Source: Eremomyces bilateralis CBS 781.70 (taxonomy: Eukaryota; Ascomycota; Dothideomycetes; Eremomycetales; Eremomycetaceae). Taken from it: a stretch of 64,000 nt of DNA. Position 1 is the stretch's first letter. Every line of letters starts with the position of its first letter. Shown here piece by piece: positions 34,926 through 64,000 of the stretch. Under the pieces are notes generated by a model. That model worked only from the letters and a program-made list of their open reading frames with translations. It did not search any database and was not told the origin of the DNA. A program made the translations under genes and the position numbers. The stretch is taken from NCBI RefSeq assembly GCF_010015585.1, contig NW_022985072.1, forward strand, positions 1,431,429 to 1,495,428. The letters run 5' to 3'.

Positions 34926-37900
34926 GGTTCATGGAAGAATCGGGGCTTTGTACCGATGTCCTCGATTTCCCGAAATGCAGGTCCAGTGCGACGTTAGAAG
35001 TACTCCAAGCTAGAGATCGCGATCGGAGGCGTGCCGCGGGGCAGTGGAGCCGGGCGCAACAGGACACAAAAAGCAAAGGGACTTAAAGATGGAGCGCGGA
35101 TAGACCAGACGAGCGCAGTAAAGACAGGATAGGATGCAGATGTGATGCGCAACGAGCCGACGGCAAAGGGTGATACAACGCGAAGCAATGGAACAGTGGC
35201 GAAGGAAAAAGGGAAGGGGAGGTACAGAACAATTGATATTTGAATGGTTGGACACGATATCTTAGACAAGCTGCTCGAGGCTACGGTGCGGTGCCCCATG
35301 GTGGACTTGGGGGATGGTGTAAGGATGGACGGGACCATGGTCCATGGGGATGCGGATGGGGGTGCGTCTCATCTGTAGACTTTTGGGCGCAGAATTCAGT
35401 CCACTCGAAGCCTCGAACCACCTGCAGTCATGACAGGCCAAACAATGAACTGTCTAAACACCACTGCATCTGCGCTTCTGCAGGTGCAAAAACCGCTGAC
35501 GCGACCCTGCCCATTCACCTGCAGGAGGTTAGCACTTAGCCTGTCGTCGTCTCGTCGAGGAGCAGGCTACGGGGTGAACCAAGTGTTAGAGAATTTTCCA
35601 TGGCTTCTTCCATGCTTCTGGCGTGGCTTCTGGAAGCTTTCCCCGTTCGTCTAGTAACCTTTCGGGAACTCGGAGACGCTGTGGGCCGACTGGGGTAGGC
35701 CTGGGGGAATCGATCGCGAATGGAGACTGGCGTGCTGCCAAACTCAAATGCTGCCCACTTCTCAACCGGCTCCTAACTTCGTTCACTATACAGCGGCAGT
35801 CCGTAGAAAGTAGAGACTCGGAATTGACCCTCTTCGCCCGCAGGTATTTGCGTGGAATAGGTAAGCAGCAGTGGTATTTGGAACGGTGAGCGTTCTCCTT
35901 TCTGGCTTCATCTAACCCAAAAGTCGGAACACCACCGTGACAGGCACCAGTTCCCGCCAAGAAGCCCAAGACGACAGCAGCTTTTTGGCTTATTGCTCGT
36001 GCAGAAACGTACTGGGGATGTCATATGGTGAGGTGCAGAAATTCATCTATCTGCGACACACCACACAGACGGGAAATGACGAGAGGGCGCGAAACGACCA
36101 GTAGCCGCTCTTGGCACGTCTTCTAGAAGATTGCCGGAAGGGTTATAGGCTGATGCACGTATGAAACGCTCCCTCTATCGAAACCGGTGATTTGTTCATT
36201 GGCTCGCCCGTCTTCGCGTTTCTTGTACTCTATCGAGCCCCTGACCGGGTTCGTTCAGCCTTGTGGTGCAGGTTTGATGCGTCACCTCGCCCTAGTGCCG
36301 GCGGTCAGATCTCGCCGCAGCCTGTGACCGACATTCTCACTTTACCGTCGGTTCATCGTGAATTCATGGCCCGGATTCCAGGAGAAATGCGGGTGGACCA
36401 GGCGATATACCATGTAGGCGGCCAATTTTTAGAGTTTGGAATGGAACGTTTGGAAGCTTCTCGGAATACTCAGATTCGCCTAATAGCGACAAGGTCCAGC
36501 GGCACACTGAGGCACGGAGGTTCGCCGTTGTGACATGCTGATTATAGCCTTCGCCGGATGCTGGTCCCGACTGGATAAGCTCTAGTAGTCTGTATGACTT
36601 GCATCATCGCTTAGAAGAATTGTATGGCCTTCAAAGTTTCAACACGTTTCGAGCGATTCATCCATAGTCTGACAGGCTTCTGACACCAGAATGCCTTAAG
36701 ACGTTGTTAAATGACGGCGAACCTGCATGCTATCCCAACACTCTCGCGTTCCCGGTAGACATAATTAATATTATTACGGAATATAGTTACCCCTAACATG
36801 TGAACTGTGGCTTCAATTGCTATATTCTAGCATCTGATTCTCGCAAGCGACGTCGGCCTAACCCGCCAGAAACGGCAAGGCTGCCGACCGGTTTGATGGG
36901 TAGTCCCGACTTCTAATGACGCAGCAATTAACTTCAATATCAACGACAACGGTGGATAAACTACCGACCATGGATTCACATTGAGGCTCCGCAGCTGTCA
37001 AACAGCCGTCATCCCATGCTCAATATACCACAAACTGGTGGCTTGTGAAACGAGTCGGAAAAAGGGGTAACGAATCGCAGCTCGATCGCGGTCGAAGATC
37101 ACGTTGAGACGATTGAGAGGCCACCGGGAGACTAGAAGAGCATGAATCGGATAGCTCAGTCGTATCATTTCATTCGTTTTCTTTGTTGTCTATGGTAGAA
37201 TGGAGAATGTCGATACGATAGTCGTCTGGTTTCACTACTGCACAGTGCACACAGGCTGTGGCTTGACGCGTGTGCGGCGAAGGGAAGAAAAATGGTGCTA
37301 ACTTACCTAATAACGGGCAGAAATAACGGAATGGAATAGAGGAGAACGGGTGAGCCAGTACCACCGCCCATTGCCCATCACTCAGTGTGGTAGGCTGCCC
37401 GTAAGCAGGTAAGAGGAGGGGGTCATGGGGGCACCGAGGCGCCACACAACGAAAATACGAAACAGAGAAAGAGTAAATTCCTGGTACCTGCCCGATTGGG
37501 TATGTCGAGGCAACCGAGCGGAATTTAATCCCGCCTTCTGGCTTTTACACCAGACAAGTGATAAGTGACAAGTGATGCCAACATGCGGGATTCACGTTAC
37601 CTACCTGGAGATGAAACCTCCAGTATTCGGCGGTTCAGTCTACCGTGACCGTGCTGTCAAACTCGGATAGGCATTCTGCTGTACAGGCGGTAGCGAAATA
37701 GAGTTTCAAGTTGACATCTGATGATCTCATATCGAAGTTTCACAGGAGGACATGGTTTTCCACAGATATACTCTGGTATCAGCTACAGTCAGGTATCAGG
37801 TATGCTTATGTCGCTTCCAGCTTTGGAAGATAGTTGGCTTCAAAGTTCAAACCACATGAGCAAAACCATCAAGATGCGAGAAACCTGCGGAGTTGTCATC

Positions 37901-51070: not shown

Positions 51071-54000
51071 TCATACTGGCTTTTCCCCGTGCTTTTGCTC
51101 TACCACCTGCAAGTCATGGCATGGGTGCATGTCCTCGGCAGTAACATTACACATAAGACACAAATCGAAGTCGTTGCATACAGTACAGTGAAAGCGGGGA
51201 CCATATATATCCTGCCTTGCAGTTAGAAGAGTCTTCTGGTTCCTGACTGGACTTACATGGAAACAGCAGTTACACCAAAAGGAATCATCACCACGAACAC
51301 CTTTCGTCGCCATTGCTAATGTCGAATTAGAACTGGACTGCGCAATGAGAGACGAAGATTCGGTTGTTCCCAACACTGCGGACAGTGACGCTTCCGTCCC
51401 AGGTTCAAAATTGGGGTTCCTGTGGAACAGAGCCATAGAAACCGGGCTCCATATTCCTGGAGGGCGTACGGTATGAACCAATGTTTCATAACCACCATTC
51501 TTAATCAGAAGCTTGACGACATCCAGGTCGCCGGTTCTGCAGGCCCAATGCAATGGGCTCCATTTGTTTGCATCCGGAACCTTGATGGGATCGAGTTCCA
51601 ACACCCTCTGGATGACCTCTATCGAACCACTAGAACAAGCATAGTAGATTGTGCTATTGCCCGCGAGGTCAACATCGCTGCAACGGAGCCCTTGGCCTAG
51701 CAGATAATTTACGCAGTGGACGTTCCCACCGCGAGCCGCCACATGAATCGGCGTGCGTCCCATTCGATCCCTAATGGTGATATCAGCCCCGTAGGTTTCC
51801 ACTAGAGTCTGAAGCACTGTAAGATAGCCTTTAAATGCTGCAGCGTGTACAGCGGTACCATAATTATCGCAAGTGGCGTTGATATCGAGAAGGGGCTGGA
51901 GCGAAGAGTCGATAGGCGGAACTTTTTGGCCAGCTAGAGATCGGCCTGATGAATTGCGCGGTACAGTCTCCGGTGGGACCGTGGAACGATGTCTGATACC
52001 GAAGAGAAGGTTCACAATTTGGATATTCCCAGAAAGCGCTGAAGAATGTAATAGACTCTGTCGATTTTTGGTTAGAGTATTCGCTTCCGCTCCGCGGTCG
52101 AGCAGCAGCCGGACCACTTCGATGTGGCCGCTATCAGCTGCTGCGTTTATAGGCGTCCATCCGTCCTTGTTTGGAGTGTTGGCATCTGCTCCGCGGTCGA
52201 GCAGCAGACGGACCACTTCGATGTGACCACGGTTCGCGGCTGAGTTCACAGGCGTCCATCCGTTACTGTTTGGNNNNNNNNNNNNNNNNNNNNNNNNNNN
52301 NNNNNNNNNNNNNNNNNNNNNNNNNNNNNNNNNNNNNNNNNNNNNNNNNNNNNNNNNNNNNNNNNNNNNNNNNNNNNNNNNNNNNNNNNNNNNNNNNNNN
52401 NNNNNNNNNNNNNNNNNNNNNNNNNNNNNNNNNNNNNNNNNNNNNNNNNNNNNNNNNNNNNNNNNNNNNNNNNNNNNNNNNNNNNNNNNNNNNNNNNNNN
52501 NNNNNNNNNNNNNNNNNNNNNNNNNNNNNNNNNNNNNNNNNNNNNNNNTTCGATGTGACCACGGTTCGCGGCTAAGTTTACAGGCGTCCATCCGTTACTG
52601 TTTGGAGCATTGGCATCTGCTCCGCGGTCGAGCAGCAGCCGGACTACATCGATGTGGCCGCTATTAGCTGCTGCGTTTATAGGCGTCCATCCGTCCTTGT
52701 TTGGAGTGCTGGCGTCTGCTCCGCGGTCGAGCAGCAGACGGACCACTTCGATGTGACCACTGTTCGCGGCTAAGTTTACAGGCATCCATCCATCGTTGTT
52801 TGGAGTATTGGCGTCTGCTTCGCGGTCGAGCAGCAGCCGGACCACTTCGATGTGACCATGGTTCGCGGCTAATTTTACAGGCGTCCATCCGTTACTGTCT
52901 GGAGCATTGGCATCTGCTCCGCGGTCGAGCAGCAGCCGGACCACTTCGATGTGGCCGCTATCGGCTGCTGCGTTTATAGGCGTCCATCCGTCGCTGTTTG
53001 GAATATTGGCGTCTACTCCTCGGTCAAGCAGTAGCCGGACTACGTCGATGTGGCCGCTATCAGCTGCTGCATTTATAGACATCCATCCGTCGTTGTTTGG
53101 AGTATTGGCGTCTGCTCCACGGTCGAGCAGCAGCCGGACCACTTCGATGTGGCCGCTACCAGCTGCTGCATTCATTGCTGTGACCCCGTACTTGTTTGTA
53201 GTTCCGATCTCCGATCCTGCCACCAACAGAAAACTGACGACGTCCTTGAAACCTTTCTTCGCTGCTGTATAGAGCGCTGTCCGTCCCATAGAGTCTTTGA
53301 GTTCGAGCTTGGCGCCGTTGCTGGTTAAGGCTATGACCATATCCTCGAAACCTCCAGCTGCAGCAGCAACAAGAGCCGCACCAAACTCGCCTCCTTCAAC
53401 ATTCACGTCTGCACCCCATCTCATCAGCATCTCGAATGCCTTGTTGTTGTGCTTTGCGCAAGCCGCCTGTAGAGGGGTGCCATATCGACCACCCAAAACA
53501 TTCAGTTGCGTCTTATCTTGGTTCCAGATGGATTCCAGTGTCATAAGAAGATTGAATAACGTGGCATAGTATATTGGGGTTCCAGCTACTTTCTCTTCGC
53601 CATCCTCAGCATTTCGGCAAGACTCAAAGTACTTTGCCCACCTGCTGAACTTCGAATTTCCAGTATGTAAGAAGTCGGTCACGATCCGTGACGCCCAAGG
53701 ATCCTCTTTTACTACGTTTTCAAGGTGCAGTTGCCAAAACCTTGAAGCATAGTCAAGAAATGAATATCCACTGACATAGCTTTGATTATTATCTGAATCA
53801 TTCCAGATGTTGTTGTAATTCAAATATGTCAGGCAAACGGCCGAAAGATAACGATGCTGATCAGCCGGATTTGCTGCGCACTCAGTTGTGGATGCTTCAT
53901 CTGAGAGCATTTGCCGATGCTTTGGCAGAACCGATAGGAGAAACTCTCTGACTGATGGATGAACGAGGTGGATGGTTTTGGAGGCGGACTGATCCTCGGA

Positions 54001-56299
54001 ATTTGCTCTCCTGACTTCCACCAAAGAGCCGCAGATGGCTATAATCTCGTTTTCGATATACTTCTCGTCGATGTCGTCGGGGAGTTCATCTAACGGTAAA
54101 CTGCTACACTTGGCGTAAGTGTTAACAGCTAGGACTTCCGAAATCTCGGATACGGACAGTGGCCGTAAGGAAAATGTTGTCCAGCGCAAGATTGCAAATG
54201 CACGGTCTTGGTCATCTGCGGGCTGACGTTTGATGTCTTCCCAGTTCTTCTTGTACGTTTCAGTAAGTCCAATTGGCATGTTCTCAACGATATTTTCTAG
54301 TTTCGTCTTGCTTTTAGTGTCGCGCAGCTGTGGCTGCTGCATCTTGATCCACTGGAACATTCCCTCACATTTCTGAGTGAGTTTATCTGCCAGCCTCACT
54401 CGAAGGTTCTCATCCTTTCTTGGTAGCGTTTTATCCACCACAGATCTGGAGTAGAGTTTGAGATCGTCGTCGACATCTTTCTTCGTAATCTTGTATTTAA
54501 GAATGACTTGCTCTGATGATTTGACCGTTGACAACTCTACTTTAATATCAGTTTCTTCCCGGCTGGTTATGAGAATTCTCGTTGCGGTGCCGGCAGCCAC
54601 GCTCTTGAGCTTTTGCAAGAAACTGACACGAGCGTCGTCTGTTTTGGAGTACTCGTCGAGCCCGTCAAGGAAAAGAGCGACACCCTGCTTCTGTGCCAGG
54701 ACAGCTTCAAAAGCAGACCAGACCTCAGAGTCCAACGCTCTGGCTCCAACATCAGAGCGCTTGGCGTAGCCCCAGATCAGTTCGAGGGTGTCAGGATCTG
54801 GAGCTGCTAACTGTGCCATCCAAGACCGAATGATGAAGCTCATATCGCCTGTCGGAGCTGATGCGGTGTGAAGTGAGGAGAAGAAGAAAGCCACCAACCA
54901 CTCATGCTTAGCCTTAAAACGTTCAAGTATTTTGGCGCAAAGGACGGTTTTGCCAAACCCAGCAGGCCCACATACCCACAGTAGTCTAGGTGCATCGCTG
55001 CCGGAATCATCAGAATCCCAGGCAAGGTATTCAGGTTTGTGAAAGATCCAGTTGCATGTGCCATGAAGGTACAATGACAACTGCTTATCATATTGCTGAT
55101 GCATGTTGTATAGTCGGTTGAAGTTTGTCATATCCAGCCAGTCGATGGTAGCCGCCATCGCTTGCTCCCTGGCTTTACGTCGCGCATTATCAAAGTACAA
55201 TTGGATACTGCGCTGGAAGTTTGGGGACGCGGATCGGCCTCGTGTAGGTTGGTCTATTGAAAAGGTCATGAGCGTCATTTTCAGTACATCGCGGACTCTA
55301 CATACCACCAGCGGGATTTATCAAGATTGTGCCTGGTCGGATGGGGTATGGCCCAATGTTGATTAGCTCTGCGATGTTATAGGATGCGTGGACTCCAGAC
55401 TCCCTCCTGCCAATCAGTGCCGTCGGCGTATCCCAAGGCAGCGTTCCATTATCGATAACCTCTGCATCGCGATCAGAAGGAGCGGTCATTAATTCGCTGT
55501 AGGCAGGGCCCCATTGATGCGTAGAAGCGAAATTGGCCTGTAAGTTGAGCTGAGTATTGCTTGTGCGTTTGTAGATCTTCTCCTTCAGCCGACGCAATGC
55601 ATGTTCAGCTCCTTCCCCATAATGAGGCGACATGAATATGTTGAATATGCCCAATAAAGAGTAAGCCTTGTCCTCTTCGCGCTTGGTCTCGCGGTTATCG
55701 GCCCACGAAAAGCGCTCATCGATGCTGAACTCGGAAAGACCATGCCCTTGTAGAGCTTCGATTTTGATCTTTGTTATCTCGTGAAGTTGGCGTTCCAATG
55801 ACTGCTTGTCACCGAGGTGTTGCCCTTCTGAGGAGAAGAATTCGACCGACGTCGGTGCAATGAGCTCTTGGAGCGTCCAACCACGAGTAAACCATCTGCT
55901 TCTCCGAAAGGCAGGTTCCCAGAAGGATTGATCCATTTGGTCATAAGTATTCATCGAGACGTCTTCCAGATACACGTAACACTTGATCGCATTACGGTAC
56001 CAGTGAAACATGGATGTAATAGCCTCTGAAAGCTCTGCAGAGCTCGATTTATCAATACAGCAAGTATCCACCCAGATGTGCTGGAGGCCATCGCGAATGG
56101 CTTGCTTAGCACAGAACCGAATCTTACTGTATCCAACCTTTGCCTGCCCAAGGCCTTCGGTCATATCTCCAAAGGTGACTTCCTCCTCCTCATCATCATC
56201 TCTCCAGGTGTGCGAAAGTATCGCATATCTGGGGATATTCCTATGCAGATCTTTGGTCAGGCTGAACTCGCCACTTTCCGAAACTCTTAAGAGACGCAT
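51071..56299 (-). CDS. NLR-type protein: HET - NACHT - ankyrin repeats - ZZ zinc finger (contains assembly gap)
   Basis: Exons 56299-55306, 55253-51257 (with 275 N inside) and 51211-51071; the introns are 52 and 45 nt. Order of parts: HET domain, residues about 20-200 (YAILSHTWRDD, WVDTCCIDK, SRWFTRGWTLQELIAP); NACHT NTPase with Walker A GPAGFGKT (about 427-434) and Walker B GVALFLDGLDEY; helical linker; then ankyrin repeats. The central units are almost identical (DGWTPINAAADSGHIEVV, RLLLDRGADAN); more diverged units follow. The protein ends in a ZZ finger (C-x2-C, HCTVC, DLCLMC, HPCH). HET domains trigger cell death in vegetative incompatibility; NACHT-repeat proteins are fungal counterparts of NLR receptors, with the repeats recognising ligands. 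No lesions are seen outside the gap. Confidence 0.92.
52070..53190 (-). repeat. Near-identical 99-bp ankyrin-coding tandem repeats
   Basis: At least nine 33-codon units are visible on either side of the gap. They differ at only a few positions, mainly at the residues after DAN (TPNN, IPNS, APDS, TPNK, APNS) and at the helix start (NAAADSG, KLAANHG, NLAANSG, NSAANRG). Unit-to-unit identity at DNA level is far above that of the diverged repeats further along the same gene, which points to recent duplication or gene conversion within the array. Confidence 0.92.
52274..52548. other. Assembly gap (275 N) inside the ankyrin array
   Basis: Unsequenced or collapsed repeat. The frame resumes on both sides at codon boundaries, so the true length must be divisible by three; 275 is not. 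From the repeat phase, missing sequence should be 42 bp plus a multiple of 99. Confidence 0.98.
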
Positions 56300-58129
56300 T
56301 ACGAAGATTGAAAGCGAACACTGAGAGTTTATAGAGAAAAACGTTCAAATTTTCAAAAAGAATATCCTATGCAAAATTGTCCTGATTGACAATGCATCGT
56401 AAGGGTCGAGATTAGGGAAGTTGAGAATCTGTGAGTTGAGAAGTGGGGCCTCCTTCAGAAATCAGTGAGGGGCATGACCGCATGAGGCTCCCCGATTTAT
56501 TAATATCTCGATGCCTACGGAGTATCCGTGCCCTTGGACCCACCCACCACCTCAGTACGGGCCCTACGGGGGCAGTGCTCTGAGAAGCAAAGCAAAGCTG
56601 TGGCTGAGTTTCAAACTTGCACGTGCACGGAATTTACACAGAGAGATATTGGGACGGAGATGCCCTACGTACCTGCCTATAGCCCGGCCATTATCGAGGG
56701 CCTCAGTTTTGCCGATCAGCGACATGAGAGGATATTCGAAGCGCACCCTTAGGAAGGCCGTGATACATACCTCAGGTGCAGCAGCAGAAGACGTGCACTG
56801 CGCTGTCGTGTCGAACTGTCGATTACCGGTAGTCAAGACACGCTCACTTTACTGGTGTTTGCAGAATGAAACCATTTCTAACTATATACTTAGATTATTC
56901 TTAAATATTGCCGCCGCATTATCCGCCTTTTAAAGTACTGATTTGAATTGCAAATAATTCTGCACGCCCGCGAAGTCCAACTGTACGCGTCCACGTCACC
57001 GCGGGTGGAAACATTGATGGAGAAGAGTTCTCTATTGATGGCTAAGTACAGTGGCGATGAGAGAGACGCACGCGTCGCGCGTGCAGGTCGCAGGTGTTGA
57101 GCGTAGTATCGCCATACCACCAACACCAGCACGACTGTGTCTACTGCCTCCGCTTAGACACGGTGTCCTTTCATCAAGGGAGGCCTCTTGAGGGATACAA
57201 AGGGATACGAAAACCATCCGATAGGGGTCTATCTAGCTCGCAGCTGGATCCGGAAGCCTAACTTATCATTAGGTGGATGAGGACGCGTCCTAGGCCTCTA
57301 ACAGGACACCCTCAGGCTCGCCTACTCTGGGGTTACGCGTGAGCAACGAGCTGCGCGTAGCGAGGCCTTGGAACAATCCTAATTCTAAAGAACTTGTTAA
57401 GGCTAACTTGTATAAATCTAGGCGAACTCTGTTAAGGCCGGAGGGCCTCTTCGCAACGGGAGCGCTTGTTAAGGCCCCTCTATCGGAACCTGTTAATACC
57501 ACAACGACACGAGCTTACCGGGCGTAACAAGCACGACAGCTTACGGAACTGGAGTCACAGGCCAGTCGATAGAGGAGAAACACAGGTATGCTCCTGGTGG
57601 AGGCTTGATGGAGACACAGACCCGTCGCGTGGATCTATACAATGGGAGAATCACGGGCCAACTTAAGATGATGGAGGACACGAGCTTGGTTAGTAGGATA
57701 AGGCTGCTTGCGTTGCCCGGAGCGGAACGAATGCGTACTGCCTTATCCTGCAAGACACGGTCGGCCAATCAGAGGGAGACCTCTATGGGCAACGCGAAAC
57801 GGCTACTGTTTACAGTAGTCGCGGGGCGTAGTGCGTGGTAGCCACTGCTGGCTCCAAGGACCTCATCCCTTCAATGGGCTCTGACCCTTGGTGAATCTGA
57901 AAGCAGACGGGATCAAACCCCGGCCGGAGAGACTACCATGTGGCTCGAGAGAACGGATGCGCGTGTCGGTATACAGAGAGACAGGACCAGTCGCTAGGCT
58001 GGAACGCTGATGATGTATGCTTAAGGAGCATACAGGCGTTACACAGGCAGAGACCCTTTTGGTTCGGGGGCGACTGTGGACGAGCGAAGTGCAGATGGCA
58101 CAGCTCAGAAAACTGTGGCAGGAGTCTGG
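56300..58129. other. Gene-free stretch with degenerate sequence
   Basis: No supported gene. Around 57395, 57430 and 57467 the motif TGTTAAGGC recurs at 35-37 bp steps. Many short frames exist on both strands, none with a recognisable domain. The right part may be decayed 5' sequence of the adjoining LINE, but I cannot show it. Confidence 0.35.
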
Positions 58130-58736
58130 ATAGGCAGACTGGTGAAACCTGCGATTGTATACAAACACAATATAATGTCCTGTCCCCCGGCCCGAACCAG
58201 TTAGGGGATATCAGACACAACAGCGAAAAGGCCCGCACCGGATGATTCAGGACGAGTATCGAGCGAAATGGAGGGAGAGATGGCAAGCCGAAGCGGCCAG
58301 ACCAGGAAGGAGAGCAAGGACATGGAAGGACCCGTGGGAAACCCAGTGCCTTAACCGGTTCAATGGCCTTCAGAAACACGAGGCCTCGGCGCTTATGGCA
58401 CTACGGACTGAGGTAGTTGGAGTTAAAGGATGGCCTGCGAAAATCGGTGTCCCGGGAATCCACCCAGCGTGTGAGTGCGGTGCCCCCCGACAGTCTCTCT
58501 ACCATCTCCTTGCGTTTTGCCCGCAGCGGACCTACCAGAGGATCGCGCTCCTCCAACGAGCTGGAACAACGGACTTTAAGAGGATATTGCATGACAGGGA
58601 CAAGGTGCGCCACGCAGCAAGGTGGCTGATCGATGCGGGAGGCCTAGAGCAATACCGGGTGGCCAAGGAAGTTGAGAAGGAAGTAATAGAGGACTGGAAA
58701 CCGTTCCAGCTCCTCCACGACGTGCCAGAATAAGCT
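58130..58736 (+). mobile_element. 5'-truncated LINE remnant (Tad1-like), C-terminal part of the reverse-transcriptase protein
   Basis: The open frame ending at 58733 encodes about 180 residues that match the end of fungal non-LTR retrotransposon polyproteins: a YRAKWRERWQ helix, the block GLQKHEASALMALRTEVVG, and a zinc-knuckle-like CECGAPRQSLYHLLAFCP (C-x-C...H...C). The reverse transcriptase core, endonuclease and ORF1 are missing. Upstream the frame is broken by stops. No poly(A) tail is obvious after the stop. It is a dead fragment. Confidence 0.6.
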
Positions 58737-59066
58737 CTCCGCGTCGGCGGAAACACCGACCCGTGCGGAAAGATGAACAATGATTGAGATACTCTACTAA
58801 GGGGAGGAGGCGGGATTTTACGTACCTGCAGCCTCGGCTGGGGGGAAACTTTTGCCCGCGACAGACCAGATAGAATATCGTGCTCATAGACCCGAAAGGG
58901 ATCCAGATAGTACGTTAAATTGATTCTTATTATTAATAATCTAATAAGCAACTGTATTGCTACTCGCGTGATAAAGTACTTCGCTGGTCTCACCTTGTGT
59001 GCGCTGACATAAATACTCCTGAAAGTAAGAATAGAATGAGTCGGAGAATATCTGAAGACAAGGTCT
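58737..59066. other. Intergenic stretch
   Basis: Nothing recognised. AT-rich towards 58920-58980. Confidence 0.35.
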
Positions 59067-61525
59067 CTAGTTTCGGGACTGTGATTGAAATAGCGGTACT
59101 ATCGTTTCGAAATCGAGGTTCGCCTCAGGATGCTCTTTTTTAACATGCTGTACCAACGATTTCTTTGAAAAGTATCCACCAACTCGACTACATCCATTAA
59201 TAGGACAAGGGTATGGAGACTCGTCATGTATATGCCTCATATGCCTGGCATATTCTGAAGAAGTATTGAATGCATGCCCTTTAAAGTCTGGATGGAGTCG
59301 ATCTAGGCGGAATTCCTTACAATCCATATGATGGCAGGAATATCCTACACTAGTGACGCCAATCCCATGGAAACTGCGTAAATGTGACTCTAGATGGTCT
59401 TTCCGCTTGAAGGCGTTTACGCCACTGTAACGGTTGCAGTGAAGGCATGGAAAGCGAGGCGCATCACTCCTATGATCGAGCAGGTGTCGAGACAGAGTGT
59501 CTATCCGAGCATAAGACTTCTGACACCCTTTAAAACCACATCGACAGATCTTGTGTGATGTTTCTTGGGCATGGATATTTGACAGGACTAAGGAGTCAAA
59601 GTTTTTCCTGCATTCAGAGCACGTTCTGCCACAGGAACTTGACTTCAGGTGTTCCAAGAATTCTGATGAGCTCTTGATATCGTTTTGGCAAATTGGACAT
59701 ATATAGATGTGTTCTCCGATGTTTTGGCTGAGTTAGGGTGTCAGAATCTACTACTGATAAATACCCTTCTAGTCCTGAACTTACCTTGACTCAATTCCTG
59801 TTGTACTAGGCGGGAAAACCTCAGCATCGCTATCATAGGCGGCATCACCAGGCTGAATATGAGATGCCGACGCCAGCGTCTTGCCGTCTGGCGAGAACGC
59901 CACGGCCCCGACGGTCTCCGAATGGCCCTTGAGCGTCTTCAGCGCCGCTCCCGGGAGGAATAACGATTCATGGCTGGTCCTCGGAATTTGTAAGATTGAT
60001 GGATTACCATACATCCATTCCGGTTGAGTCTGGCCTCGACCATTTTGAAATGAGTCTGACGACTGGGCCGGTCTGTAGTGGGTTGTTGTCTGGGGAGATT
60101 CATATTCTGGATTTGAGAGGTTCGTCCAGCTACCCGAAGGATTTGTGACAATATCAGACCGGATGAATCTCGGTAAACTGTTTTGCTCCGAGTTCAACCT
60201 AGCTCTTCAAGGGTTATGCGCTGTGACTCTATCCAGCGATGTTCAAGGCACTGGGTTGTAGTCATTCGCATATTAGGGCGCATCCCTATGAGATTACAGA
60301 TAAATTCCTCCCCATCGCCTCTAGCAGATGACGGAAGTTGATCCGATGGGAAGGGCCGCTTTTGTTGATAGTATTCCATTAATTCCCACTCGGACTTAAA
60401 TGTGGCATTGCCAGTCAGCATACGAAAGGCGATTTCTCCCAAAGCCCACATATCTGCCGCCTTAAAGTCAGAGATATGCTTAGGTTTAGTAAGATCAGGG
60501 AATCCGAGTAGCTCCGGCGCCATATACCCTTTCGTGCCTTGGATCGTAGTAGTAGGTGCGTTACTCTCCTCGTCTCGTTTACTGATACCGAAGTCAGCGA
60601 GTACTACCCACCACTTCCCCTCCGGCGGTTTTAATTTGATAAGGATGTTCTAGCGATGTTACTAAATAATTGCTTAACATTTATATCGTACTTACTCCGG
60701 GCTTTAAATCCCTGTGCGCAAATTCATTCTTATGCATATGATCAAGGCCTTCGAGTATTTGACGCGTCACTTGTTGAGCTTCTACCGCGAGCAGGGAACG
60801 TTGGTTGAAGAGGTAGTGATGAAGGTCACCATAATGGCAATATTCCATAGTAATGAAGATTGAGCTCAAATCTTCATACCATCCGAACGACTTTACGAAC
60901 CAATGTTCATACTATAATACTAATATCAGCTTACGTTAATATATCTCGAAGTAATTTAACTCACTCGTTTATGAGAAAATTTTGCAATCGCTTCTAACTC
61001 TCTGTTGAAATTCGGGGACTTGTTGATGACCTTCACCGCGCGGAGAGCATCCTGCTTTGCACCGGTGGTAACACATATCTGCAGCAGAACCGCTCCAAAT
61101 CGTCCGTATCCAAAGTTTCTATCCCATTTCCAGTATTCTTTTCGGTAGGATCGAGAGCCTGCTTCGTCGATATCGTGAACTGCATGGATGGTTGCGGAAT
61201 TGCTAAACTCCGTAATAAGTTTGGAGTCCGACACGAGATCTGGTGTTCGAGGCATTATTCGAACCTATAATATTGTTAGCCGCGAAATAATAACTATATC
61301 GAAAGTTAAACCGAGACTGACTGTGTGGTATCCTTCGGATACATAGCTTTGTTGGCCGATGAAGCTCACCTCGAATACTCTGCAAAGACCGAGACACTGA
61401 AAGACGAAGAAGTCCAAGAATGTTCCGATGCAAGTCTCTGGGGTAATATGGTCTCTGAGAATCGAGGGGAATAACAAAGTACACCGCCATCTCTACCTAT
61501 ATCGCATTGCTCTCAGCTGACGCAT
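59067..61525 (-). CDS. Composite protein: serine/threonine kinase - single WD40 unit - C2H2 fingers
   Basis: Exons 61525-61497, 61454-61370, 61264-60965, 60911-60696, 60649-60199, 60106-59785 and 59727-59067 sum to 687 residues. The kinase is complete: glycine loop GYGRFGAV, Lys in RAVKVI, Glu in NRELEAI, HRDLKPGN, ADFGISKR, GTKGYMAPE. A Ser/Gln-rich linker leads to one WD40-like unit (ALKTLKGHSETVGAVAFSPD, then GKTLASAS) of the kind repeated in fungal NWD receptors. C2H2-type elements follow (CPICQNDI...; CSECRKNF; CGFKGCQKSYARIDTLSRHLLDH; CHHMDCKEF...; CPINGCSRVGGYFSKKSLVQH). Weakest points are exon 1 (42-nt intron) and the junction after the kinase (donor GTTGAA, 92-nt intron); without the first two exons a start at 61255 remains. 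Role unknown; its position among NLR-type genes suggests an accessory signalling protein. Confidence 0.72.
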
Positions 61526-61878
61526 TCGATTGGCTGGATGTGAGGTAGCACAGTAGGGGGCGAAGCTCCGGCTGTGCTGGGCATACTATGTACTATGTTT
61601 TGGACTGAGAGTCCGCCATGGACTGGGACAAGTCGTGTTGCAAGATGCCCTGTTGGTTTCTACAGCCACCTAACATTCCTTCACTGCCCTCTACCCCTGG
61701 GCTAGGCCTAATCAGGACTCTTCAGTCTTCTCCATGTAATTAAGTTATCTTCATCCGGCTTAGTTACTAGCTAGATCTCCTTTTCTAGACAATGGGAATC
61801 TTTAATAACTACCAATTCGCGTTAGTTAACTAAGTTAGTTATGACTCTACAGTAACTGAGCTTAAGCAGCGACCGTGC
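61526..61878. other. Intergenic stretch between the composite kinase and the recombinase relic
   Basis: AT-rich and without recognisable features. It must contain the kinase promoter if that gene is expressed. Confidence 0.35.
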
Positions 61879-63560
61879 TTAATCATCATCCCCGCGAAAT
61901 GCGACAGTTGCATCAACGGGCATTGCATCAATGATGACGTCGCTATTCGAAATCGGCGACTCGGTAATAGTAATATTGCCGCCCAGCGCCTGTGCATCTT
62001 GTACCTTGCGAGAGTACCGGTCCAATAGGTTGCGCTGTCCTGTCTTATGGACCTAAAGAGCTTGGACATCTCGTCTCTCAAGAAGCTTTTTAAACTCTTC
62101 TTCACTCAGGTGGCATAGGGCAAAGGGATCCGCCGTAGATGATAAGTCCGCCAGGAGAGAGAAAAGGGCATCTTCAGGAGGTGCGAGCACACCCAGCATA
62201 ACCCGCGCTAGATTCTGAGACACATAATCCGGGAAATAATACTCCTGTTGAGTATTCGATTTGTGCATAAGCATCCAATGCCCAAGCAACTCGCCGAGAA
62301 TTCTAATAATTTTGCCCCCGGAACCGACTCGCATAGAGTAGGGGATCGGAGGATTCTCCATGCCGGCGACTTCGCACCAGCGATACCATATCCTATAGAA
62401 CTGCGACCCGCTGATATCGACGAATGGGAAATCGTCCAGGCCTTGTGCCCAAGGAAGGAAAAGGACTTTGCAACCTCGAAGGTTGGGCCGGGTCAAAACT
62501 TGATCAAAGGACGTATATCCGGCCCGGAAGCACGCCGTGCTAGAGCGCGGCCAATGATGTGACTCGCAAGACAGACCAGTCGGCATGGCAAAATGGCCAC
62601 GGCAAACTCGCGCCCGGGGCTCGCAGGCTTTATGGAAGCCACTCGCAGTTTGTTTTCTGGCATTCGGATTCGTACGAACGCGTTCGTTTTCCCGCCAACG
62701 TTGACGAGTCCTATCCTGACTTCTGCATACTTCAGGTTTCTAGGACAGTCGATCCGGAATCCGCCAATAGCTATATAGAGCACGATCATGGCGAAGTCGC
62801 TAAGTTGCGCCGTAGAGTGGAGGATATCGCTATAACGATTCAGGAGAGCCTACATGATGACTACTCTATCCTGAGCAGTCGTAGCCCGCTTTTGGCGCTT
62901 GAGTGCGTTAGAGATACCGGTAAGGAAAGGAAGGTCGTGGACAATCCACTACAGGGACGTTAGTATCCTTCTCCGCACAAATAGAGGGCAGACCTCACAT
63001 TGGAAACCACCCACACGGGCCCTGAAATAAGTTTTCCACTTGGATTGACGAGCCTCTATTGCCTCGCGGTTTGCCTGTTCTCTCTTCTTTTGGGTGTAAG
63101 GACTGCTTCGTCCCCTTCCTGCACAAGCGCTCTCCACACTATCAGGACGGTGGATACTCGATTCACCTGTCGGACCTCCTCGTATTCTTGATCTCCTAAC
63201 GCAACCCCGGAGACCGAAGAGTCGGAGACATAGGTCTGGAGAAAGGCACGACATGTATCCTGAGCCAAGGCTACCTCCACTGGTGAAGAGCTGCAAAGGG
63301 ATAACCAGGTGTTTCGTACTACTTGAAGAGCCACATCGCGTAGCCGCGCTTGTATGTAGTTCTGTCCGACACTGGGACCGTATCGTCGAGGGGCTTGTTC
63401 TGGAAGCTAGCTAGACGCTCCTTTGCCTCTTGTTCTCCGGCTTCGCCCTTTCGAATAGTGCGTCGTGGCACCATAGTCAAAGACGTATCTTGGAATAGAC
63501 GTCGAGAATTTTGGCTGCGTGTAGCATTGATAGCGTCGACTACCTCCGAACCCGATGGAA
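61879..63560 (-). pseudogene. DUF3435-type tyrosine recombinase (Starship captain-like), frameshifted
   Basis: Homology continues through several frames. N-terminal part, about 63560-63340: MVPRRTIRKGEAGEQEAKERL, then KPLDDTVPVSDRTTYKRGY. After a shift near 63330: VVRNTWLSLCSS, CRAFLQTYV and VLIVWRALVQEGDEAVL. After further breaks: LKYAEVRIGLVNVG and CLASHIIGRALA near 62540. After another shift: LFLPWAQGLDDFPF, GMENPPIPYSMRVGSGG (with the recombinase Arg), GELLGHWMLMH and LSEEEFKKLLERRDVQAL. The tail ends at 61879. The order and the YxxR / L-H / RxDVQxL signature resemble DUF3435 recombinases, which are the captains of Starship giant transposons. Stops and at least three frameshifts make it non-functional. 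It reads away from the 5S gene. Confidence 0.7.
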
Positions 63561-63893
63561 CTGGAACTGAAGAAGAGTACTGTAGAACTGCAAACGGAGC
63601 TCCTGACCGAGGGCGAGACTGTAGAAACTGCGAACAGGACTCATGACTGAGAGCGAGACGGGAAATCTAGGGAGAATGGGCATCTTTACGATCCTTACCA
63701 GAGTGCATTTTCGACGGGCCCTCGTCTTTCGGCGGTATTGACCCTCTGTTTTCGACCTCGTTTATATCGCTGGGAGACCATAGGGGAACTCCTATTGCTG
63801 CATGTTTTTATTTTTATGACCATTATGTCAAGTTTTTCAGTGGGCGGATTGGATTTATGGTCGTTTATGATGTAAAAAACTTCAATTTCTAGC
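63561..63893. other. Spacer between recombinase relic and 5S rRNA gene
   Basis: It contains the imperfect duplication GACTGTAGAAACTGCGAACAG / TACTGTAGAACTGCAAACGG at about 63577-63643 (43-bp spacing, including GAGCTCCTGACCGAG / ACTCATGACTGAGAG). If a transposon edge exists here it should lie in this 330 bp. Confidence 0.45.
63577..63655 (+). repeat. Imperfect 40-45-bp tandem duplication
   Basis: Two adjacent copies share TACTGTAGAACTGC and GACTGTAGAAACTGCG as starts and CTGACCGAGGGCGAG and ATGACTGAGAGCGAG as ends. It lies between the recombinase relic and the 5S gene. Confidence 0.7.
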
Positions 63894-64000
63894 ACATACG
63901 GCCACATCAACCTGAATATAGGGCATCCCGTCCGCTCTGCCGTACTCAAGCAGGTTAGAGATAGAATAGTACTACGGTGGGTGACCACGTGGGAACTCCT
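63894..64000 (+). rRNA. 5S ribosomal RNA gene (cut by window edge)
   Basis: Starts ACATACGGCC, the standard 5' end of ascomycete 5S rRNA. It continues with GGGCATCCCGTCCGCTC (the conserved loop B/C area), CCGTACTCAAGCAGGTTAGAG, and GGTGGGTGACCAC (box C of the internal RNA polymerase III promoter). About 107 of the usual 118-120 nt are inside the window. The stretch GATAGAATAG replaces the more usual GCCGGGTTAG, so this copy may be diverged or a pseudogene. In Pezizomycotina 5S genes are dispersed, which fits a lone copy. Confidence 0.85.

Follow-up and report, generated by a model that had tools for sequence, protein, structure and literature searches.

The disrupted recombinase gene that lies near a 5S rRNA gene at the right-hand end of this DNA raises the question of whether the two are neighbours by chance or form the edge of a transposon, and, if they do, of what kind and in which target. 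The window (the whole 64,000-nucleotide stretch under analysis, C6:1431429-1495428) ends where contig C6 ends, at 1,495,428 bases. The genome to which it belongs comprises 62 contigs and 26.6 Mb, and its HET genes and captains suggest a filamentous fungus; everything reported here comes from this one genome, and contigs and loci carry working names (C6, L032 and so on). The locus is very probably the 5' end, in truncated form, of a Starship-type transposon inserted at bases 98-105 of the upstream one of two tandem 5S genes, with its captain, a DUF3435 tyrosine recombinase, placed 309 bp inside the edge and reading inward.

A split 5S gene at the end of the contig

The features at the right-hand end of the window, from the contig end inward, are as follows.

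63894..64000, plus strand: neighbouring 5S rRNA gene, bases 1-107, intact up to the cut at the contig end (Rfam RF00001)
63807..63893, plus strand: T-rich 5S end and spacer of a former tandem 5S pair (match to the intact pair on C13)
63784..63806, plus strand: 3' remnant of the broken upstream 5S, bases 98-120 (edge alignment, core position and match to the C13 tandem pair)
61911..63783, minus strand: probable truncated Starship-type 5' end, made up of a conserved end block, a 309-bp leader and the broken captain (identity to L032 and L033)
61911..63474, minus strand: captain relic, DUF3435 tyrosine recombinase, with stops and deletions and the C-terminal part lost
61636..61910, no strand assigned: dispersed repeat, about 271 bp long, adjoining the captain's cut end

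The 5S gene at the window edge stops where it does because the sequence runs out. It matches RF00001 at 61.6 bits over model positions 1-106, and 105 of its 107 bases (98.1%) are as in the 5S of L009. The 23 bp at 63784-63806 are the last ones of a second, broken 5S, and their opening 8 bases, GGGAACTC, are the common core, or direct repeat, of the family of elements described below. From this remnant to the neighbouring gene the sequence differs from the intact tandem pair at C13:226835-227160 at about 10 of about 118 columns, by an eye count that takes in the core; tandem 5S pairs occur on C2, C9, C13 and C20, with spacings of 187 to 206 bp. Since both the remnant and the spacer match the intact C13 pair, which serves as a paralogous empty site for the window copy, the element appears to have gone into the upstream gene of such a pair and to have split it at bases 98-105, the intact 5S being the neighbouring gene. 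The association with 5S in the original prediction stands to the extent that a 5S gene adjoins, but the target is the second, broken 5S, which had been overlooked, and the element lies inside that gene rather than beside one.

On the element's side of the edge, 61911-63783 has a local identity of 91% to L032 (C9) and 90% to L033 (C1), in two pieces each. Counted without gaps, the identities are 94.1% and 93.7%, respectively, whereas L032 and L033 show 98.0% identity between themselves in this region. That the gene here is a frameshifted DUF3435-type recombinase, as had been proposed, is borne out by an HMM search with the conceptual frame, in which the piece 62056-62739 (minus strand) had its best match within DUF3435 (PF11917; E 3.4e-7, 30 bits, cut-off 25.8). 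A six-frame search of the genome with DUF3435 matched the same spot (C6:1493418-1493813, E 2e-7), and protein matches to the C9 captain are at 84-89% identity. The frame is interrupted by stops, and it carries deletions of 80, 1 and 36 bp relative to both sister copies. Its start codon likely has its first base at 63474 (minus strand), and the 309 bp that separate it from the element edge are found in the C9 copy as well, so the proposal that the captain comes first at the 5' edge and reads inward holds for the putative starts of both. The spacing of about 330 bp from a 5S that had been given for the recombinase fits the distance from captain start to element edge, but the intact 5S is about 420 bp from that start.

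Homology of the window copy to its sisters ends at 61911, at the dispersed repeat, for which 42 matches were found in the genome (itself and partial pieces counted). With its stops, its deletions and its C-terminal part gone beside this repeat, the window copy is dead. C>T or G>A accounts for 45 of the 95 window-specific changes, and 17 of the 45 have a CpA/TpG context; no claim of repeat-induced point mutation is made from this count. As for the matching direct repeat or second 5S fragment that the original prediction suggested seeking tens of kb to the left, no far edge was found on C6, by a search that also missed two diverged 3' ends (C1:1607275 and C2:778.7k) and is hence weak. A lone GGGAACTC at position 35664 of the window gave no 3'-end match.

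One edge position and one core in many copies

A DNA search of the genome with the C9 copy, combined with inspection of flanks, provided a census of edges in which the best candidates only were taken and all counts are lower bounds. Contig breaks lie close to several of the edges. It yielded at least 19 5' edges, 17 of which adjoin a 5S 3' remnant and 2 the 3' end of another element. At least 6 further 3' edges adjoin the remaining part of a 5S, with 5S bases up to 105. At all 17 of the 5S remnants the position of the edge is identical to the base. Common to all edges is the core GAGTTCCC (5S bases 98-105) or a variant of it with one base changed, such variants being present at C2:1058.9k, C1:484989, C5:504.9k and one junction on C2. 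Conserved end blocks extend for about 83-95 bp on the 5' side and about 73-85 bp on the 3' side, beyond which several units diverge.

When 16 of the 17 outer flanks (the window's left out) were compared all against all at E 1e-4, shared sequence was confined to the four that have a tandem 5S neighbour in common (L032, L033, L047 and L048, to which L045 has an 80-bp match) and to the pair L040 and L044, which share 218 bp at 84%. As the outer flanks are mostly unshared, most of the insertions appear to be independent. Proximity of the recombinases to 5S was also counted: 4 of 21 DUF3435 loci lie less than 2 kb from a 5S match against 0.09 expected (binomial P 2e-6, or 1e-4 counting three), where the 21 loci are our own grouping of 46 genome matches and the 5S set comprises 22 matches. 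One of the four, at C5:502k, is a captain of another type, and the 5S fragment adjoining it is the edge of a different unit.

Terminal inverted repeats were not significant in the 3 end pairs tested, for which 133, 257 and 247 of 300 shuffles were as good; such repeats are recorded for 18 of 20 Starships in PMC12153272, and are therefore not universal. The last 60 bp of the 3' ends before the core resemble the 5S sense strand in five of six ends (0 to 8 of 1000 single-base shuffles as good). The C5 3' end does not (545 of 1000), and eight 5' ends gave no fit to 5S (115 to 993 of 1000). A possible mimicry of 5S by the element ends is a lead only.

Two further observations are recorded here. At C2:1676495 (L042) the core is followed by bases of the element's 5' end, after which 5S resumes; this hybrid junction might be a conversion or an older excision scar. 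The 5S fragments at L020:2622-2994 (C5) and L053:368-763 (C19) are without their first bases, and their outer flanks are alike at about 80%, which suggests that another repeat, or a duplication, adjoins 5S on its 5' side.

Bounded units and head-to-tail junctions

Edges were paired into units by their order and orientation on the contig.

C20 unit: about 9.4 kb, core to core
C2 unit: about 20.6 kb, core to core
C1 unit: about 47 kb, core to core, with 9,962 bases being N
Fourth unit, C1:1600273-1607282: about 7.0 kb, with a 5S remnant at one end, a head-to-tail junction at the other and a HET match inside

In the C2, C20 and 47-kb C1 units each edge has the 8-bp core, with one base changed at the C1 3' edge. 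When the flanks of these three units are joined and compared with the 120-bp 5S, 115 (C2), 118 (C20) and 117 (C1) bases are identical, with small inserts interrupting the 5S part in C20 and C1; the joined flanks of the three bounded units rebuild a near-complete 5S. A simple scheme for the insertion is that the captain would pair the element's core with the same core in 5S and exchange strands there. Since one core copy would be left at each end, the 5S gene would be split. The hybrid junction at C2:1676495 stands against so simple a scheme, which does not predict element bases in place of 5S after the core.

Two head-to-tail junctions, in which a 3' end meets a 5' end at a single core copy, were found: L067 (C1:1607180-1607420, at 1607275) and L068 (C2:778640-778860, near 778.7k), the latter with one changed base in its core. 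One origin of such a junction could be insertion of a second element at the core that forms the 3' edge of the first; another could be integration of joined ends, and the data do not separate the two. The last exon of the C9 captain, used as protein query, had no match in the C20 unit, the 47-kb unit or the 7-kb unit. In the first two of these, DNA matches to the captain extend over the first part of the gene only, and C20 also has one weak 48-aa protein piece. A broader proposal, which we hold to be somewhat less likely than not, is that the genome holds a swarm of 5S-cutting Starships whose mobile unit would be two short ends and the 8-bp core; C1:1600273-1607282, in which no captain was detected, would then be a mini-Starship that is non-autonomous and depends on sister captains for its movement in trans, and the two junctions would be the trace of joined ends, either circular or from insertion at an edge.

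Captains and cargo

The C9 captain can be read, with no base altered, as a protein of 793 aa whose three exons are separated by GT-AG introns 52 and 50 bp long. PF11917 matches the C9 and C1 copies at E 4.4e-16 and 5.8e-15; in the C9 protein DUF3435 is the sole Pfam match and lies in the last exon, and cysteine/histidine repeats like those of C2H2 fingers were recognized by eye. An arginine, a histidine and a tyrosine, candidate catalytic residues, align, by eye and in a partial alignment, with those of other DUF3435 proteins of the genome. A search of solved structures with the C9 captain gave four matches, none of them convincing (best E 0.41). A protein search with its last exon gave 18 matches, 15 of them at 46 to 100% identity (C9, C1, C2, C6, C24 and C34) and three weak ones at 31 to 35% (at C3:1182k and C1:2387k). 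The DUF3435 search of the genome is itself incomplete, having missed the captain at C2:1657-1663k that was seen by the DNA and C9-captain searches. The C9 captain leaves 17 of the 21 DUF3435 loci unmatched, and these are probably other captain types. Captains of other types lie away from 5S at C23, C15, C20:287k, C3:976k, C17, C7, C12, C13:209k and elsewhere, and several of their frames end in C2H2-like repeats as judged by eye.

Cargo lies between the edges of the C20 and 47-kb C1 units. The six ORFs tested in the C20 unit (L066, C20:153801-162199) match 6-phosphogluconate dehydrogenase (two), phosphomannose isomerase, a xylose-isomerase-like barrel (two) and a short-chain dehydrogenase, forming a compact block of sugar metabolism with 5S remnants and element ends on both sides. 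In the 47-kb unit, Pfam matches were obtained for 9 of 10 chosen ORFs, namely a kinase, a hydrolase, the APH family, two DDE transposases, NACHT, HET, NB-ARC and TPR. In the C2 unit a DDE_3 transposase gene separates the two parts of the captain, and Helitron sequence lies deeper inside. Four ORFs were tested there, of which one, a captain piece, was without a Pfam match.

HET genes lie near the edges more often than expected, and on the inward side. The genome has 102 HET matches, and one falls within 10 kb inward of 5 of the 19 edges (0.71 expected, P 0.0008) against 1 of 19 outward (0.69 expected), in a test that is post hoc, includes the window and ignores the closeness of some edges. At 5, 15 and 20 kb the inward counts are 3, 5 and 5 edges (0.36, 1.05 and 1.40 expected) and the outward counts 0, 1 and 1. 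The window contributes one of these genes.

51071..56344, minus strand: HET and NACHT-ankyrin frames (HET E 2.7e-11; NPHP3_N/NACHT; ankyrin), within 10 kb inward of the edge

These frames probably represent one fast-changing gene of NLR type, and it is possible that they are cargo of the window element. The ankyrin repeats of the NACHT frame are many and near-identical, and a run of 275 N at 52274-52548 lies within the array. Between these frames and the captain relic, 56966-58946 consists of two dispersed repeat pieces (44/55 genome matches), previously described as a LINE relic; they recur in the same order on C26 and C12, and the one frame tested had no Pfam match. The zinc-finger and kinase region at 59863-61279 is 67% similar to C13:374500-375891, where about 90 bp from the left end of the region recur in tandem.

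Alternative explanations

The reading as the 5' end of a Starship-type transposon draws on the homology of the captain, an edge that is exact to the base, the core at both edges of relatives, 5S sequence outside both of these edges, and the 5S that is rebuilt when they are joined; with relatives that bear cargo, these observations support the Starship assignment made in the original prediction. Against it stand the single edge of the window copy, with the weak search of C6 for a far one already noted, the inverted repeats that were not significant in three end pairs, the hybrid junction at C2:1676495 and the small size of two of the bounded units (7.0 and 9.4 kb), which fall short of the range of reference Starships in PMC12153272. 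How far the element once reached is a separate matter. If the element once extended far into the window, its cargo might include the HET-NACHT-ankyrin gene, the kinase and further genes to the left of the relic, and the inward enrichment of HET (in which the window's own gene, less than 10 kb from the edge, takes part) and the HET, NB-ARC/TPR and NACHT genes of the bounded 47-kb C1 unit speak for this. That no far edge came to light in the weak search of C6 speaks against it, and so does the cut of the captain at 61911 by a dispersed repeat, followed by the LINE-type pieces, so that continuity with the genes on the left is broken; we regard this extension as possible but rather doubtful.

A small, Crypton-like 5S transposon that consists of a recombinase only and has no cargo, its larger spans being due to decay and nested transposons, would account for the predominance of fragments among the copies and for the DDE transposons and Helitron nested in the larger units. 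The captain nevertheless matches DUF3435, the sugar genes of the C20 unit are not transposon genes, and cargo is also present in the C1 unit, which makes this explanation very unlikely. More improbable still is a spread of the pairing by duplication of one ancestral 5S-captain cassette rather than by repeated insertion. The tandem 5S neighbour common to L032, L033, L047 and L048 and the flank common to L040 and L044 are what such duplication would leave, yet the other outer flanks that were compared share nothing at E 1e-4 while the edge is identical to the base, and both head-to-tail junctions use the same core. The 5S genes are dispersed in this genome, and an old captain relic might have come to lie near one of them by chance; the excess of DUF3435 loci close to 5S and, decisively, the same edge at 17 5S remnants refute a chance neighbourhood, which can hardly be credited.

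Relation to known elements and implications

The Starship Voyager of Macrophomina phaseolina reportedly has a 5S target as well, a likeness to the elements described here. Bacterial integrative elements employ a tyrosine integrase and an RNA-gene target with a short fixed core, carry a core copy at each end, and occur in head-to-tail copies. The present elements resemble them in the fixed core within an RNA gene, the core at each end and the head-to-tail copies, which is a likeness of working only; in the bacterial elements the target gene is often rebuilt, whereas the 5S is split here.

Targeting of 5S by Starships is already in print, in PMC12153272, where the Starship 'Osiris' of Aspergillus fumigatus (Enterprise family) has 5S rDNA as its predicted target and fragments it, and where direct repeats over 6 bp are linked with 5S targeting. 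The elements described here are like Osiris in that the 5S target is fragmented, with a repeat of 8 bp. They are unlike it in size, since mean lengths there are 38 to 138 kb (reference Starships as a whole spanning 16 to 444 kb) and the bounded units here, several of which lack a readable captain, span about 7 to 47 kb. The head-to-tail junctions and the unit without a detectable captain are the fresher part. Among the matches listed in a search of the Starship literature on tandem, head-to-tail and circular forms, with most subscription papers and all bioRxiv preprints outside its reach, there was no report like the two junctions, and no claim is made that they are new to print. Within the same reach, a search on non-autonomous Starships gave no such report either, the word being used there for a nested Tc1-type element. 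According to PMC12506042, no circular Starship intermediate has been reported and the mobile form is an open question; a circle would contain a junction of 3' end, core and 5' end like those described here, and the question can therefore be put to a direct test.

It is important to emphasize what a family of this kind offers. The edges of Starships are usually called from empty sites in other strains. Here, a single genome provides at least 19 5' edges and 8 3' ends (six at 5S and two in junctions) on one fixed target, and with so many edges a comparison among them suffices to narrow down the recombination site. Broken 5S 3' ends number at least 17, and 5S matches that reach 83 bits number at least 15; these counts show a transposon eroding an essential family of RNA genes.
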